From positions 1-20,788 of the IMG/VR virus record IMGVR_UViG_3300008012_000250: 20,788 nt of DNA, one strand, 5' to 3'. Positions 11,089 through 17,215 of this stretch are shown piece by piece. Position numbers and translations under genes: made by a program. The DNA is from a virus. How positions within the stretch are numbered: position 1 is the stretch's first letter; the number at the start of each line of letters is the position of its first letter. The notes under the pieces are model-generated. The model was not told where the DNA came from. It did no database searches and worked only from the letters and a program-made list of their open reading frames with translations.

Positions 11089-13194
11089 TTATTCCTCATA
11101 ATCAACCACTACACTAATGACACCCCAGTCGTCGTCTTCTTCAATATCTTGATACCAAATAGTGTTGTTTGCTGGAGCGTCAACCGTAACTGATGGAACA
11201 GTAAGGTAACCCTTACCAGCATTTGTTATTGTAATACTACTTATATTTCCGTTAACATCGACAGCAGCAGTCGCTGTAGCAGTATTAGATGTTGGAGGAT
11301 CTATAGTAATTACTGGATCCACATAAAACTTACCAGGATCAGTAACAATTATGCTGTCAACCAAACCATTGTTAATCGTAGCAGTTGCGCTAGCAGAATA
11401 GTCACTTGGGTTTCCTGTTGCTGCACTGAATGATATGGCAGGAGCAGAATTATAATTTGAACCGCCGTTTATGAGGTTAATTGCAGTAACTTCACCGTCT
11501 GTTACAGTAGCATTTGCTGTTGCGATATCTTTATCAAAATTGTACTCTGCAAAGCTACCTGTAGAAGCAACAGTTGGTATAGTAGTATTTGCAGTAATTT
11601 CTGTAATGGCATTAAAAGTAACATTATCTATAGCCCCGTAAAAACTATCATTTACGTTTGTTTGTGCAATAGAACTTGAAGGAACTGGATCTGCTCCTGC
11701 TCTGATTACTTGGTAAGTTCTATTAACAGCACCACCGCCCGGACTCTGTAGATTACTTACATTTCCATTTACTGTAATTCTTGCTGAAACGTTAACATGC
11801 TCAATACGAATATGATTCCATTGATTTAGATTTAAAGATTCGTTTAATGAAATATTATTTGGCCCAAATGAGTAAATTACTGCAGATGAATTATACCATA
11901 ACTTCCACCTGTCACTCCATAGAATGACTCTGTTCCCAATTGCGTTGAATGGATAGAACCAAAGCTCAAGAGCATAACCGTCATCTGGCCCAGTATCTAT
12001 GTCTGCGCTTGGATTCCCAAGTATTGTAGTTGTATTAGGATTTCCCGAATGAAAAAGAGCGTCATCTCCAAACTTAAATACAGGTGCAATTGATGGCGGT
12101 GGAGCAATAGTAACCGTTGGAGGCAAAGAATAATATCTACCGCCTTCGGTAAGTGTAATTGAATCAACCACGCCAGCAATTACGTTAGCAGTAGCTGCTG
12201 GTAGTTGAGCAGGTCCGTCTGGATTTGAAATGGAAACATTTGGAACTGTTGAATAATATCCACCAGCATTAGTCAAGTCAATAGAAGTAATAAGCTCGTT
12301 TACAACCGTTGCGGCCGCCGTTGCCGTTACGATAGAAGGAGGTGTGATTGTAACTCCCGGAACATTATTAGCATCATAGCCTTCACCATCACTTACAACT
12401 GAAACGCTAGAAACTCCTCCGTTTGCAATTGATGCAATAGCGCTAGCAGTAGCCACTGGTTGTGTAACTGGATTTCCGTCAGGACTCAAGCCTGGATATA
12501 CTTGCACTTGTTCTTGGAACGCTGCATTTGTAGCAGTATCAGAAGATAGATTAGCTTCAACAAATTTAATAACTTTCTTCTCTTTGATTGGCCCAAAGTA
12601 CCAACCTTTAAGAGTAAAAGAAAGAGTATGAAGAACAGATTGACGGGTTTCAAAGTCACCTTCATATAGTTCTTCTACTGTAATGCCATTTAGAACGACA
12701 GGAATATCAATTGGATCAATATCATCCATCATTCTTGCAGTTACGGTCCAATCTGGTGTAAAGAATGGAATAATTTGCTCAAGAAGCTTTGTGGCGTCTT
12801 CTGAATACTTTGTCATAATATACAAAGAGAAGTCTAAGTTATATGGAACTGGAGAATAAAGAATGTTTCTATTATCTTCATTATCTTCTGCAGTTGTCGT
12901 ATAGACTTTTCTTGTAGTGCTTATCTTACGAGCAGGATCGTAGAACATGTTTGTAATTTCAAAAGACATACGAGGCAATTGAATCGCAGCTCTTCTACTA
13001 TTAAGAAGGTTTGCATCCTGCTGCACCCTTGCCAACACTTTCTGGAATGGAGCATAGGAAAGAGGTACAATAATATCTTGTGATACGGTTCCATCATTGG
13101 TTGTTCGTTTAATCTTTAACTGATTAAAGAGTGTACCAAACAGGGCAACATATTTTCTTGTTGTTTGATTATAGAAGTAATTTGCTATTGCCAT
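11089..13194 (-). CDS. 15: Tail completion / sheath-stabilising protein gp15 with large insertion
   Basis: A 701-aa protein, against 272 aa for T4 gp15, which forms the ring capping tail tube and sheath and joining tail to head. Residues 1-~233 match gp15 in register: YFYNQTTRKYVALFGTLFNQ, IIVPLSYAPFQK, RMSFEITNMFYDPARK, TKLLEQIIPFFTPDWT and LSFTLKGWYFGPI. The last ~24 residues (YQDIEEDDDWGVISVV) resemble the T4 gp15 C-terminal DIDPEDWDG segment. Between them lie about 430 extra residues: three beta-repeats (248-368), a LamG/concanavalin A-like domain (371-~557) and three more repeats (559-674). The reading frame is intact, so this is a true domain insertion. The gene lies between 14 (3-base gap) and 16, with an AGGA ribosome site. 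The gp15 assignment is firm; adhesion by the insert is inference. Confidence 0.93.
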   Translation of the reverse strand: MAIANYFYNQTTRKYVALFGTLFNQLKIKRTTNDGTVSQDIIVPLSYAPFQKVLARVQQDANLLNSRRAAIQLPRMSFEITNMFYDPARKISTTRKVYTTTAEDNEDNRNILYSPVPYNLDFSLYIMTKYSEDATKLLEQIIPFFTPDWTVTARMMDDIDPIDIPVVLNGITVEELYEGDFETRQSVLHTLSFTLKGWYFGPIKEKKVIKFVEANLSSDTATNAAFQEQVQVYPGLSPDGNPVTQPVATASAIASIANGGVSSVSVVSDGEGYDANNVPGVTITPPSIVTATAAATVVNELITSIDLTNAGGYYSTVPNVSISNPDGPAQLPAATANVIAGVVDSITLTEGGRYYSLPPTVTIAPPPSIAPVFKFGDDALFHSGNPNTTTILGNPSADIDTGPDDGYALELWFYPFNAIGNRVILWSDRWKLWYNSSAVIYSFGPNNISLNESLNLNQWNHIRIEHVNVSARITVNGNVSNLQSPGGGAVNRTYQVIRAGADPVPSSSIAQTNVNDSFYGAIDNVTFNAITEITANTTIPTVASTGSFAEYNFDKDIATANATVTDGEVTAINLINGGSNYNSAPAISFSAATGNPSDYSASATATINNGLVDSIIVTDPGKFYVDPVITIDPPTSNTATATAAVDVNGNISSITITNAGKGYLTVPSVTVDAPANNTIWYQDIEEDDDWGVISVVVDYEE
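11170..11523 (-). repeat. Three ~36-aa beta-repeats after the lectin-like domain of gp15
   Basis: Units at residues 559-594, 600-635 and 638-674 follow the pattern ATAxAxVxxGxVxSIxVTxxGxxYxxxPxVTIxPP. Examples are DGEVTAINLINGGSNY, NGLVDSIIVTDPGKFY and NGNISSITITNAGKGY. The repeat is familiar from phage and bacterial surface proteins. Confidence 0.85.
11524..12084 (-). other. LamG / concanavalin A-like lectin domain in gp15
   Basis: Residues 371-557 show jelly-roll laminin-G hallmarks: ELWFYP (410-415), WNHIRI (459-464), an ITVNG strand with its NG turn (473-477) and the closing FYGAIDNVTF (518-527). Such domains commonly bind glycans. Called from pattern only. Confidence 0.75.
12088..12453 (-). 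repeat. Three ~36-40-aa beta-repeats before the lectin-like domain of gp15
   Basis: Units at residues 248-287, 290-327 and 334-368 share the GxVxSIxVTxGGxYYxxPxVxIxPP pattern of the downstream set. Examples are GGVSSVSVVSDGEGY, NELITSIDLTNAGGYY and AGVVDSITLTEGGRYY. Confidence 0.85.
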
Positions 13195-13196
13195 TG

Positions 13197-13886
13197 TTAT
13201 GAATCCTGAATATCAAGTACTTCACTGAACGGGTCTGTTTCAGAGAAGTCTAGAATATCGTCTGCAGCCTGTTCAATGAATAGGTTATCAGCGAATGAGT
13301 TTGATGTATTGGAAACGGCTGTAAGAGTAGATCTAGAGGCTGTTGTAACATCCATATTATTAAGTGTAAAGTATTCATCAATATCAGGAATACCCGTGTC
13401 GAATCTTTGACCTGATGCTTCGATTAATTCACAACGTAGGTCGTATACTTGTAATGCGCCTGATTGATAGAATACGCTCTCGTGCTCAACATATTTGATC
13501 TCATACATCTTCTGATTAAGTGGGAAGAATATGATATCACCTTCAAGAGGTCGTACTTTATTTTGATCTTCTTTAGTAACAAATCTTTCAAATGTGCGAA
13601 TTGCAACAGTAAAGGTGACAGAATCTCTAATCTCAAGACCAAACTTAGATAGGAAGTCTCCTTCGCCTTCAAATCCATCAACATTTTTAACATAAGCTTC
13701 AAAGTTAAATGTTTCATCATACAGCGGCATATCGTCTTCATTAAAGATACTATCCTCACCTTGGATAGATCTCGTAACATAGATAACATCAAGACCATAG
13801 ATCTGAATCGATTCGATCACCAGATCGTCGATTAAGTTCTGTTCGTTGAAGTTATCGTAGTTTCTGAAGAAAACATTGGTGGCCAT
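13197..13886 (-). CDS. 14: Neck protein gp14
   Basis: A 229-aa homologue of T4 gp14 (256 aa). With gp13 it forms the neck that seals the filled head and accepts the tail. Matching features are the N-terminal FFRNYDNFNEQ region, LVIESIQIYGLDVIYV, FEAYVKNVDGFEGEGDFLSKFG, GDIIFFPLNQKMYEIKYVE and the acidic C-terminal FSETDPFSEV, which mirrors the T4 SSPFDNDF end. It starts 3 bases after the gene 13 stop and ends 2 bases before gene 15, so the neck genes are tightly coupled. The ribosome site is weak (TTGGAT), which fits coupling. Confidence 0.93.
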   Translation of the reverse strand: MATNVFFRNYDNFNEQNLIDDLVIESIQIYGLDVIYVTRSIQGEDSIFNEDDMPLYDETFNFEAYVKNVDGFEGEGDFLSKFGLEIRDSVTFTVAIRTFERFVTKEDQNKVRPLEGDIIFFPLNQKMYEIKYVEHESVFYQSGALQVYDLRCELIEASGQRFDTGIPDIDEYFTLNNMDVTTASRSTLTAVSNTSNSFADNLFIEQAADDILDFSETDPFSEVLDIQDS

Positions 13887-13889
13887 GAT

Positions 13890-14633
13890 TTATCCAATAA
13901 AATTGTACGTTAGTGGTTGAAGCGAGGAAATAGCATCTTCTTCCATCGCTCTTCTTTCTTCTCGTGCCTCCGCTAGAATTTGCTCTCCATTAAATGAAAC
14001 ACCACCAACAAGTTGCATGTTATTAAATTTAGTAAGATTCAAACCCCATTGCTCTCTTACAAGAACAGCAGAATAGTTTTGTAGCCAACGATCTGACCAG
14101 ACTTCTTCATAGAAATCTTCATCTATTACGTCGTAAGCTTCGATAATGATATAGTTTCCTACAGCAGTTCTGCTTTCGTCCGCATCAATATACAATCTGT
14201 TTACGTGTTTATTATATCTAATAAGAGGTCTACCTACTAGAATCTCAGCCATAAATTCAATATGAGACATAGTCATGTAATACGATGAAACGTCGTATCC
14301 AGTGATGTCTTTTACGTTATTAAGCACAAACTGATAATTAACATTAAACATGCCTGTGCCAGAAGAAATAGATGATCCAAGATCAAATACTTTCTGAATC
14401 CCTAGCAATTTCTGAGGTAGTGTAACATATCCGTTGTCTTTGTCTTCTTGAGTAATCTGGTGCTTAAGATAAACTAATTGGCTTCCATTGTAATGGTAAT
14501 CTCTCCAAAAAGAAATAGCCTCGTCGATTCTATCTTCTACCTGTTCATCAGACACGTTAATTTGGATGACCGGCGCACCAATTTTTCTTAGGACATATTC
14601 TGTGAATTCTTCTCTTGATGTTGGCTGTGCCAT
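13890..14633 (-). CDS. 13: Neck protein gp13
   Basis: A 247-aa homologue of T4 gp13 (309 aa), the portal-side neck protein. Signature segments are EYVLRKIGAPVIQINVSDEQ (residues 11-30), VEDRIDEAISFWRDYHYNG, LPQKLLGIQKVF, and the C-terminal region DRWLQNYSAVLVREQWGLNL followed by an FNGEQI motif. It is the first gene of the compact 13-14-15-16-17 operon. GGGGA lies before the ATG, and the preceding gene ends 11 bases upstream. In T4 the preceding gene is the whisker gene wac; here it is a short BppU-like gene. Confidence 0.93.
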   Translation of the reverse strand: MAQPTSREEFTEYVLRKIGAPVIQINVSDEQVEDRIDEAISFWRDYHYNGSQLVYLKHQITQEDKDNGYVTLPQKLLGIQKVFDLGSSISSGTGMFNVNYQFVLNNVKDITGYDVSSYYMTMSHIEFMAEILVGRPLIRYNKHVNRLYIDADESRTAVGNYIIIEAYDVIDEDFYEEVWSDRWLQNYSAVLVREQWGLNLTKFNNMQLVGGVSFNGEQILAEAREERRAMEEDAISSLQPLTYNFIG

Positions 14634-16195: not shown

Positions 16196-17215
16196 TTAGA
16201 CGCTTCCATAAACTGTTCCTGTCCATATTCCTTGAGTAAAAGTTGCACCTCCAGTTCGTAGGACAGCAGCACCACCGGTGCCACCAACACCACCACCGCC
16301 GTTTCCTCCAGCTGCACCCCAGCCGCCACCAGATCCTGCTGCTGTAGTAGAACTACGAGAATCTGATCCGCCGGTAGCGCCTGGATTTCCTGCAGAACCG
16401 CCTGCAGCGCCAGAAATATTATTACTTGAGCCAGATCCAGAATTGCTTAAGAAACCACCAGTACCTCCAGTGCCTGGCAAAATACGTCCGCCTGCGCCCC
16501 CGCCACCATTAAAGCTCGTGCCTTCATCCCAGAATGTTACTCCAGAACCACCACCTGCGCCACCGCCGTGACCGCCCTCCGTACCTCTAGTGCCGTTAGG
16601 ACCATCTGTTCCTACATTTCCAACTGATCCACCAGCATTACCAGAAGGTCCTCCAGATCCGCCACCTGCACCACCGCCGCCACCTGCTCTCCATCCATAG
16701 GCCGCACTAGAGCTTGCTCCGCCACCACCGCCACCTGCGATGAAGGCACCTGATAAATTATTAATAGTAACAGAATCAGACGTAGAAATCGAAATCGCAG
16801 CACCACCGTTGCCGCCATTACCGGCACCACCGCCGGCACCACCTTTACCTATAATATAGCCTTCATTATTAATAATAACACCGTTTGGGAAGGATCCAGA
16901 AATAGTCAATCCTGCGCCATTAATATCATTAGACCAAACATAAACTCCAGAAGATATATTTAAGGTTACGGCAGAAGTTCCATCCCAGCCTTGCGCAGTA
17001 GCATAAGTTGCAAGATCCATCTCTTGAGTGTTTGTAGAAACAGTGAAGCCAGCAGATGCACCATAAAACTGGTTGAAACTAGATGCAGCGCCAGAAGCTT
17101 TATCTATCAGACCTCTAATATCTTCATCATTAAGTGTACACAACGTTCCACTGGTACCTCCAGCTTCTATGTGCAGGTCATTGATAGAAATTGCACCTGA
17201 TGCTTGTAGAGCCAT
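16196..17215 (-). CDS. Glycine-rich tail adhesin-like protein, 339 aa
   Basis: The N-terminal ~55 residues (SGAISINDLHIEAGG, then LNDEDIRGLIDKASGAASSF and FYGAS) are a module common at the start of phage tail proteins. A middle segment (~60-120) is beta-rich. From ~123 to 326 the protein is dominated by glycine, with runs such as GGGGGGASSS, GGGGGAGGGSGGPSGNAGG and GGWGAAGGNGGGGVGG, interrupted by short non-glycine segments. This composition resembles distal adhesins of T-even-like phages (gp38 type), where glycine-rich strands pack as polyglycine II helices and the intervening loops bind the receptor. The start overlaps the fibre gene stop by one base (TAATG), so the two are coupled. Adhesin function and fold are inference. 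Confidence 0.75.
   Translation of the reverse strand: MALQASGAISINDLHIEAGGTSGTLCTLNDEDIRGLIDKASGAASSFNQFYGASAGFTVSTNTQEMDLATYATAQGWDGTSAVTLNISSGVYVWSNDINGAGLTISGSFPNGVIINNEGYIIGKGGAGGGAGNGGNGGAAISISTSDSVTINNLSGAFIAGGGGGGASSSAAYGWRAGGGGGAGGGSGGPSGNAGGSVGNVGTDGPNGTRGTEGGHGGGAGGGSGVTFWDEGTSFNGGGGAGGRILPGTGGTGGFLSNSGSGSSNNISGAAGGSAGNPGATGGSDSRSSTTAAGSGGGWGAAGGNGGGGVGGTGGAAVLRTGGATFTQGIWTGTVYGSV
16238..16849 (-). repeat. Glycine-rich low-complexity segment of the 339-aa protein
   Basis: About 200 residues with many GGx and GGGG stretches, encoded by repetitive GGN codons that appear as CCN on the plus strand. The short breaks (SSSAAYGWRA, VTFWDEGTSF, FLSNSGSGSSNN) are candidate surface loops. Confidence 0.85.

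Follow-up and report, generated by a model that had tools for sequence, protein, structure and literature searches.

The tail terminator is a small conserved ring protein, and the question raised by the present locus is why its gene should code for a product of 701 aa, and what role the additional residues, referred to below as the cassette, may play in the virion. The window analysed is the whole stretch of 20,788 nucleotides of the IMG/VR record IMGVR_UViG_3300008012_000250, the minus strand of which carries genes 23, 22, 21, 20, 19, 18, 17, 16, 15, 14 and 13 in the order of a T4-like structural cluster, and beyond gene 13 two small structural genes, then a Gp38-type adhesin and then a tail fibre. 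Genes 17-23 were named from sequence and order, only some of them having been checked by profile; genes 14 and 16 flank gene 15, as expected for T4 gp15. The features on which the analysis is built are as follows.

11089-13194, minus strand: gene 15, tail terminator/sheath stabiliser, one unbroken open reading frame of 701 aa with the cassette (PF16724, E 6e-66; T4 gp15 structures 9mkb_AB and 4hud)
12490-13194, minus strand: gp15 core, residues 1-235 (PF16724; aligned with T4, phiM19 and the relative L029)
12082-12453, minus strand: N-terminal arm, repeats R1-R3, residues 248-371 (AlphaFold2 and repeat comparison)
11527-12081, minus strand: LamG/pentraxin-like jelly roll, residues 372-556 (profile and fold matches)
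11467-12066, minus strand: most likely swapped LamG allele, 57-71% nucleotide identity to the relative L003 (identity island in an otherwise mostly 95-100% identical locus)
11167-11523, minus strand: C-terminal arm, repeats R4-R6, residues 558-676 (AlphaFold2 and repeat comparison; PHROG repeat matches)
11092-11166, minus strand: conserved acidic gp15 C-tail (WYQDIEEDDDWGVI...), aligning with RDIDPEDW of T4 gp15 (T4 residue 240)
13197-13886, minus strand: gene 14, head closure Hc2, plain, 229 aa with an acidic C-tail, homologue of the cassette-bearing gp14 of S-SSM7
13890-14633, minus strand: gene 13, head-tail adaptor without the T4 fibritin-binding domain III (alignment; PMC12270204)

The assignment of the gene itself is well founded, as the T4-gp15 family PF16724 matches residues 6-230 in the profile search (E 6.1e-66), and in the PDB search with the predicted gp15, the core of which has low pLDDT, T4 gp15 was the top match (9mkb_AB, E 8.8e-9; 4hud, E 3.4e-8). 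The initial annotation had held that the core and the acidic tail are intact around an insertion, and both parts of this statement agree with the PF16724 match and with the alignment of the tail to T4 gp15; the coordinates it had given, 11164-12459, correspond exactly to residues 246-677, the segment missing from the 270-aa allele of L029. These extra residues (~246-677), located directly ahead of the conserved acidic D-W tail, form a LamG/concanavalin-type jelly roll flanked on each side by three ~40-aa repeats, the six repeats covering residues 248-289, 290-332, 333-371, 558-600, 601-637 and 638-676. All 15 pairs of repeats scored at z 5-13 over shuffles, and a strand-strand-short-strand pattern recurs in them in the AlphaFold2 model (mean pLDDT 91 and pTM 0.69 for the cassette alone), while the whole-cassette PDB searches gave matches mostly of jelly-roll type, so that the build proposed from the letters alone, three repeats on either side of a LamG domain between core and tail, was borne out by profile, fold and repeat comparison.

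The central domain was recognised both by profile and by fold, which supplies the LamG/concanavalin match proposed earlier as a check. In the window gp15, the LamG profile PF02210 matches residues 403-529 with 27.3 bits (cut-off 22.9), and PF13385 reaches 26.0 bits, just under its cut-off of 27.6; the latter exceeds the cut-off in most relatives tested and matches the cassettes of 30 out of 30 aligned relatives at E<=0.01 (best 1.6e-17). The predicted residues 370-555 superimpose on PTX3 (Z 18.6, rmsd 3.1, 175 residues) and laminin LG4 (Z 16.5, rmsd 2.3, 152 residues), and in sequence comparison a profile built from 30 cassettes also finds LG domains of neurexin (E 6e-7). The botulinum-toxin matches in the fold lists, at 8-12% identity, were set aside as a reflection of the shared jelly-roll fold. 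That a real LamG cassette sits in the neck ring is, accordingly, practically certain.

The gp15 core was used for scanning IMG/VR, and 80 relatives were kept, 64 of them with a complete gene. The cassette stands at the same place in 56 of the 64, with gp15 of 695-703 aa, which rules out a separate gene fused by sequencing or assembly error, a possibility raised with the initial annotation; in five long relatives' contigs the cassette-bearing gene is the only gp15. The remaining eight complete relatives carry a cassette-free gp15 of 270-304 aa. The empty site is seen in L029 (270 aa), where the core passes directly into the acidic tail IPYLDIEFNDDWDTITIIEEI, and L262 provides another cassette-free allele (271 aa), in which the acidic tail is kept. 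The presence and absence of the cassette require at least three changes on the core tree, and gp14 in the clade of the window is plain (225-229 aa). Seven loci (L023, L024, L025, L046, L051, L052 and L067) have a gp15 of 301-304 aa with another C-terminal extension, ending like NIDLDSGYGIEDLN, which stands where the cassette and the usual end of the tail would be. The 221-kb record IMGVR_UViG_3300022921_000002, the ends of which are L261 and L262, contains two distinct sets of T4-like genes 13-15: in one, gp15 has cassette repeats and is cut at the contig end; in the other, it is the plain one of 271 aa. Two related phages were probably joined in this chimeric assembly.

The cassette is not confined to the terminator. 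A search of 50,697 phage records with the LamG domain (E 1e-5) matched only gp14 of S-SSM7, S-SSM6a and Sf-FS3, proteins of 762-763 aa annotated as neck protein or head closure Hc2, which have a genuine N-terminal gp14 domain (PF11649, E 1e-23 to 6e-26) and, downstream of the insert, a normal acidic tail (e.g. DEILDFTERNPFGE). The S-SSM7 cassette aligns with that of the window type at an hhalign probability of 99.8% (E 2.4e-29, 359 columns), and both are a homologous repeat-LamG-repeat placed between a ring core and a conserved acidic C-tail; the S-SSM7 type differs in its carrier, in the extra repeats after LamG and in a gp15 of 360 aa without LamG. In each of the 80 S-SSM7-type loci fetched, gp14 is either long or present as a truncated fragment of the long form, with LamG in all except two cut ahead of the domain, the match in L212 being partial; no LamG was seen in gp15 of these 80 loci. 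In Pelagibacter phage Mosig EXVC030M, gp15 (532 aa) resembles that of the window in having the gp15 core and then repeats and a LamG-like domain, but stops one repeat after this domain and has no acidic tail; this extension is related to the cassette by hhalign (97.7%, E 1.8e-12), although its LamG-like part is diverged below detection by Pfam, which gave no LamG call. No LamG was found in 80 IMG/VR loci with Mosig-like gp15 cores, where the complete gp15 genes are of 255-269 aa. The top ranks of a viral fold search were taken by proteins of 762 aa and 532 aa, lengths that fit gp14 of S-SSM6a/SSM7 and gp15 of Mosig. In no locus examined does the cassette occur in gp14 and gp15 together. Thus, the earlier description of the cassette as a gp15 insert holds in the clade of the window, while its being specific to gp15 does not, since the S-SSM7 lineage has it in gp14. 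Two proteins of ~2400 aa in metaG-MbCM1 (L264, 365-7567 and 20957-28186) are also annotated as gp14 neck protein, probably by way of the repeats common to S-SSM7 gp14; they lie outside the gene 13-15 interval and were, therefore, left out of the tally of neck cassettes.

The two insertion sites appear to belong to one joint. In the T4 virion, the C-terminal region of gp14 (178-256) contacts gp15 203-245 (PMC12270204); the gp15 insertion maps by alignment to T4 residues ~230-239, just ahead of RDIDPEDW at 240, and the S-SSM7-type insertion maps to the gp14 C-terminal region, so that both would share the same interface. As gp15 is a hexamer in T4 (PMC3004832), the neck location in six copies, expected from the outset, would follow by analogy, the six cassettes emerging at the gp14-gp15 joint. 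At such an interface (PMC12270204) the cassette might act as a structural clamp bracing the head-tail joint across gp14 and gp15 with no outside ligand, comparable with the decoration proteins of Staphylococcus phage 812, which are thought to reinforce such joints (PMC12886913). The strict conservation of length and the low dN/dS are in line with bracing, but close relatives manage with the plain gp15 of 270-304 aa, the arms evolve faster than LamG, opposite to the expectation for a brace built of arms, and a swap of the LamG allele leaves the ring unchanged; a clamp is, on this evidence, considered unlikely.

The rates mentioned are as follows: the median pairwise dN/dS was lowest in the core (0.07), a little higher in LamG (0.10) and highest in the arms (0.21-0.23), hence the head of the cassette is kept and its arms are looser. 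LamG is under purifying selection. It is not generally hypervariable: besides its low dN/dS, LamG in the S-SSM7 clade is as conserved as the gp14 core, and this conservation would suit an unchanging ligand or a structural role better than a shift of host range. Within the window's own population, the window and L003 are mostly 95-100% identical over 7.6 kb save for a 600-bp island on LamG, where dS is 2.77 versus 0.115 in the core and 30 of 50 fourfold sites differ versus 8 of 102 (Fisher p 1e-11); against the more distant L001, however, the dS values of LamG (0.66) and core (0.48) agree. From this contrast with L003 and agreement with L001, one of the two LamG alleles, that of the window or that of L003, was most likely imported. 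The AU topology test of the LamG against the core grouping gave p 0.075 with the LamG data, which is not significant, and 0.25 with the core data, and the swap, therefore, rests on the dS contrast together with the sharp identity island. A recombination-prone repeat-LamG cassette might also drift among virion genes as a neutral or selfish element with no function at the neck, for the viral fold search met similar repeat and LamG modules elsewhere in the virion, baseplate wedge initiators included, and the cassette changed its presence on the core tree repeatedly, as given above; the low LamG dN/dS, seen over 83 pairs, and the cassette in nearly all S-SSM7-type loci make such a drift very improbable.

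The initial annotation had further suggested that the cassette replaces the whiskers of T4, having noticed no wac homologue upstream of gene 13. The latter observation stands, in that Fibritin_C (PF07921) is absent from the window gp15, the upstream ORFs scanned and the relatives' contigs, the T4 control being positive, and the T4 gp13 domain III (~190-239) has no counterpart in the window gp13 by alignment. The replacement itself fares worse: among the phages searched, T4 alone had a member of the fibritin family, and phiM19, which is cassette-free, equally lacks fibritin and gp13 domain III, so that whisker absence does not track the cassette. It might still be supposed that the LamG heads hold retracted tail fibres at the neck and control their deployment, as T4 fibritin does, given the neck position, the missing fibritin and domain III, and the part taken by T4 whiskers in the retraction of long tail fibres (PMC3004832). 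Such a function is, however, distinctly doubtful, since, as phiM19 shows, whisker loss does not go with the cassette, and in L015, where the tail-fibre/adhesin region upstream of gene 13 (15.9-20.2 kb of the window) is replaced and the rest is ~90-95% identical, LamG keeps 84% nucleotide identity, with no obvious co-variation of LamG and fibre. The replacement in L015 fits a variable host-recognition cluster. In the window, the Gp38 tail-fibre adhesin family PF05268 matches a glycine-rich 339-aa protein (16196-17215, minus strand; 28.1 bits, cut-off 25), the gene of which adjoins that of the 997-aa tail fibre; the two are likely the primary host-recognition pair, which makes primary host recognition by the cassette unlikely.

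The reading preferred here, at somewhat better than even chances, is that the cassette is a virion decoration of the neck ring, in which six LamG heads bind a ligand, perhaps a glycan. Its parts are not equally firm: an outward-facing decoration is quite probable; LamG as the putative ligand-binding head is moderately so; and a glycan as the ligand has a chance slightly below even. The two repeat arms would run out and back as a stalk with LamG at the tip, and the ligand would most likely be a glycan of a surface or of the environment, the phage's own tail fibres in their folded-back state being another possibility. Binding would help attachment or retention, the tail fibres performing primary recognition, and the heads would be exchanged by homologous recombination, by which the ligand may change. 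Against the decoration count some close relatives that do without the cassette, the conservation of LamG in the S-SSM7 lineage described above and a neck-fibre carbohydrate-binding module, that of the Anabaena phage A-1(L), which did not bind the host (PMC10966104). More tentatively, and with a probability of about one third, marine T4-like phages may have acquired such modules repeatedly at the gp14-gp15 joint, where exchangeable lectin heads in a six-fold ring would form a second receptor system, borne by the neck and with heads swapped independently of the tail fibres; there would then have been at least three separate gains, in gp15 of the window clade, in gp14 of the S-SSM7 clade and in gp15 of Mosig.

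LamG domains in phage structural proteins are known, and so are neck appendages. However, the open-licence literature searched yielded no paper in which gp14 or gp15 has a LamG domain, nor any account of a terminator ring with a built-in lectin-like cassette that is exchanged as alleles and recurs in the gp14 ring next to it. In the pelagimyophage structural operons, concanavalin-type domains were ascribed to fibres or baseplate (PMC7029224). The T4 collar and whiskers of fibritin (wac) are likewise appendages round the neck, but fibritin is a separate trimeric coiled-coil protein docked via gp13 domain III (PMC12270204), and neither is present in the window. The neck fibres of A-1(L) (gp82-gp81-gp80) are neck-borne with the carbohydrate-binding module at the end, but are encoded by separate genes, as five fibres on gp5 (PMC10966104). 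The decoration proteins of phage 812 are placed on the stopper-terminator joint, but are separate small dimeric proteins, with no lectin domain reported in the available excerpt (PMC12886913).

Since the same cassette occurs in gp15 of one family of marine T4-like phages and in gp14 of other marine phages, the phage neck seems to be a place where binding domains are mounted repeatedly. The recurrence of the cassette in these two rings across separate marine lineages indicates that the neck too, besides fibres, baseplate and capsid, serves to display binding domains, which flags the genes now annotated merely as neck protein or sheath stabiliser and suggests a testable way for marine phages to cling to cells or particles.
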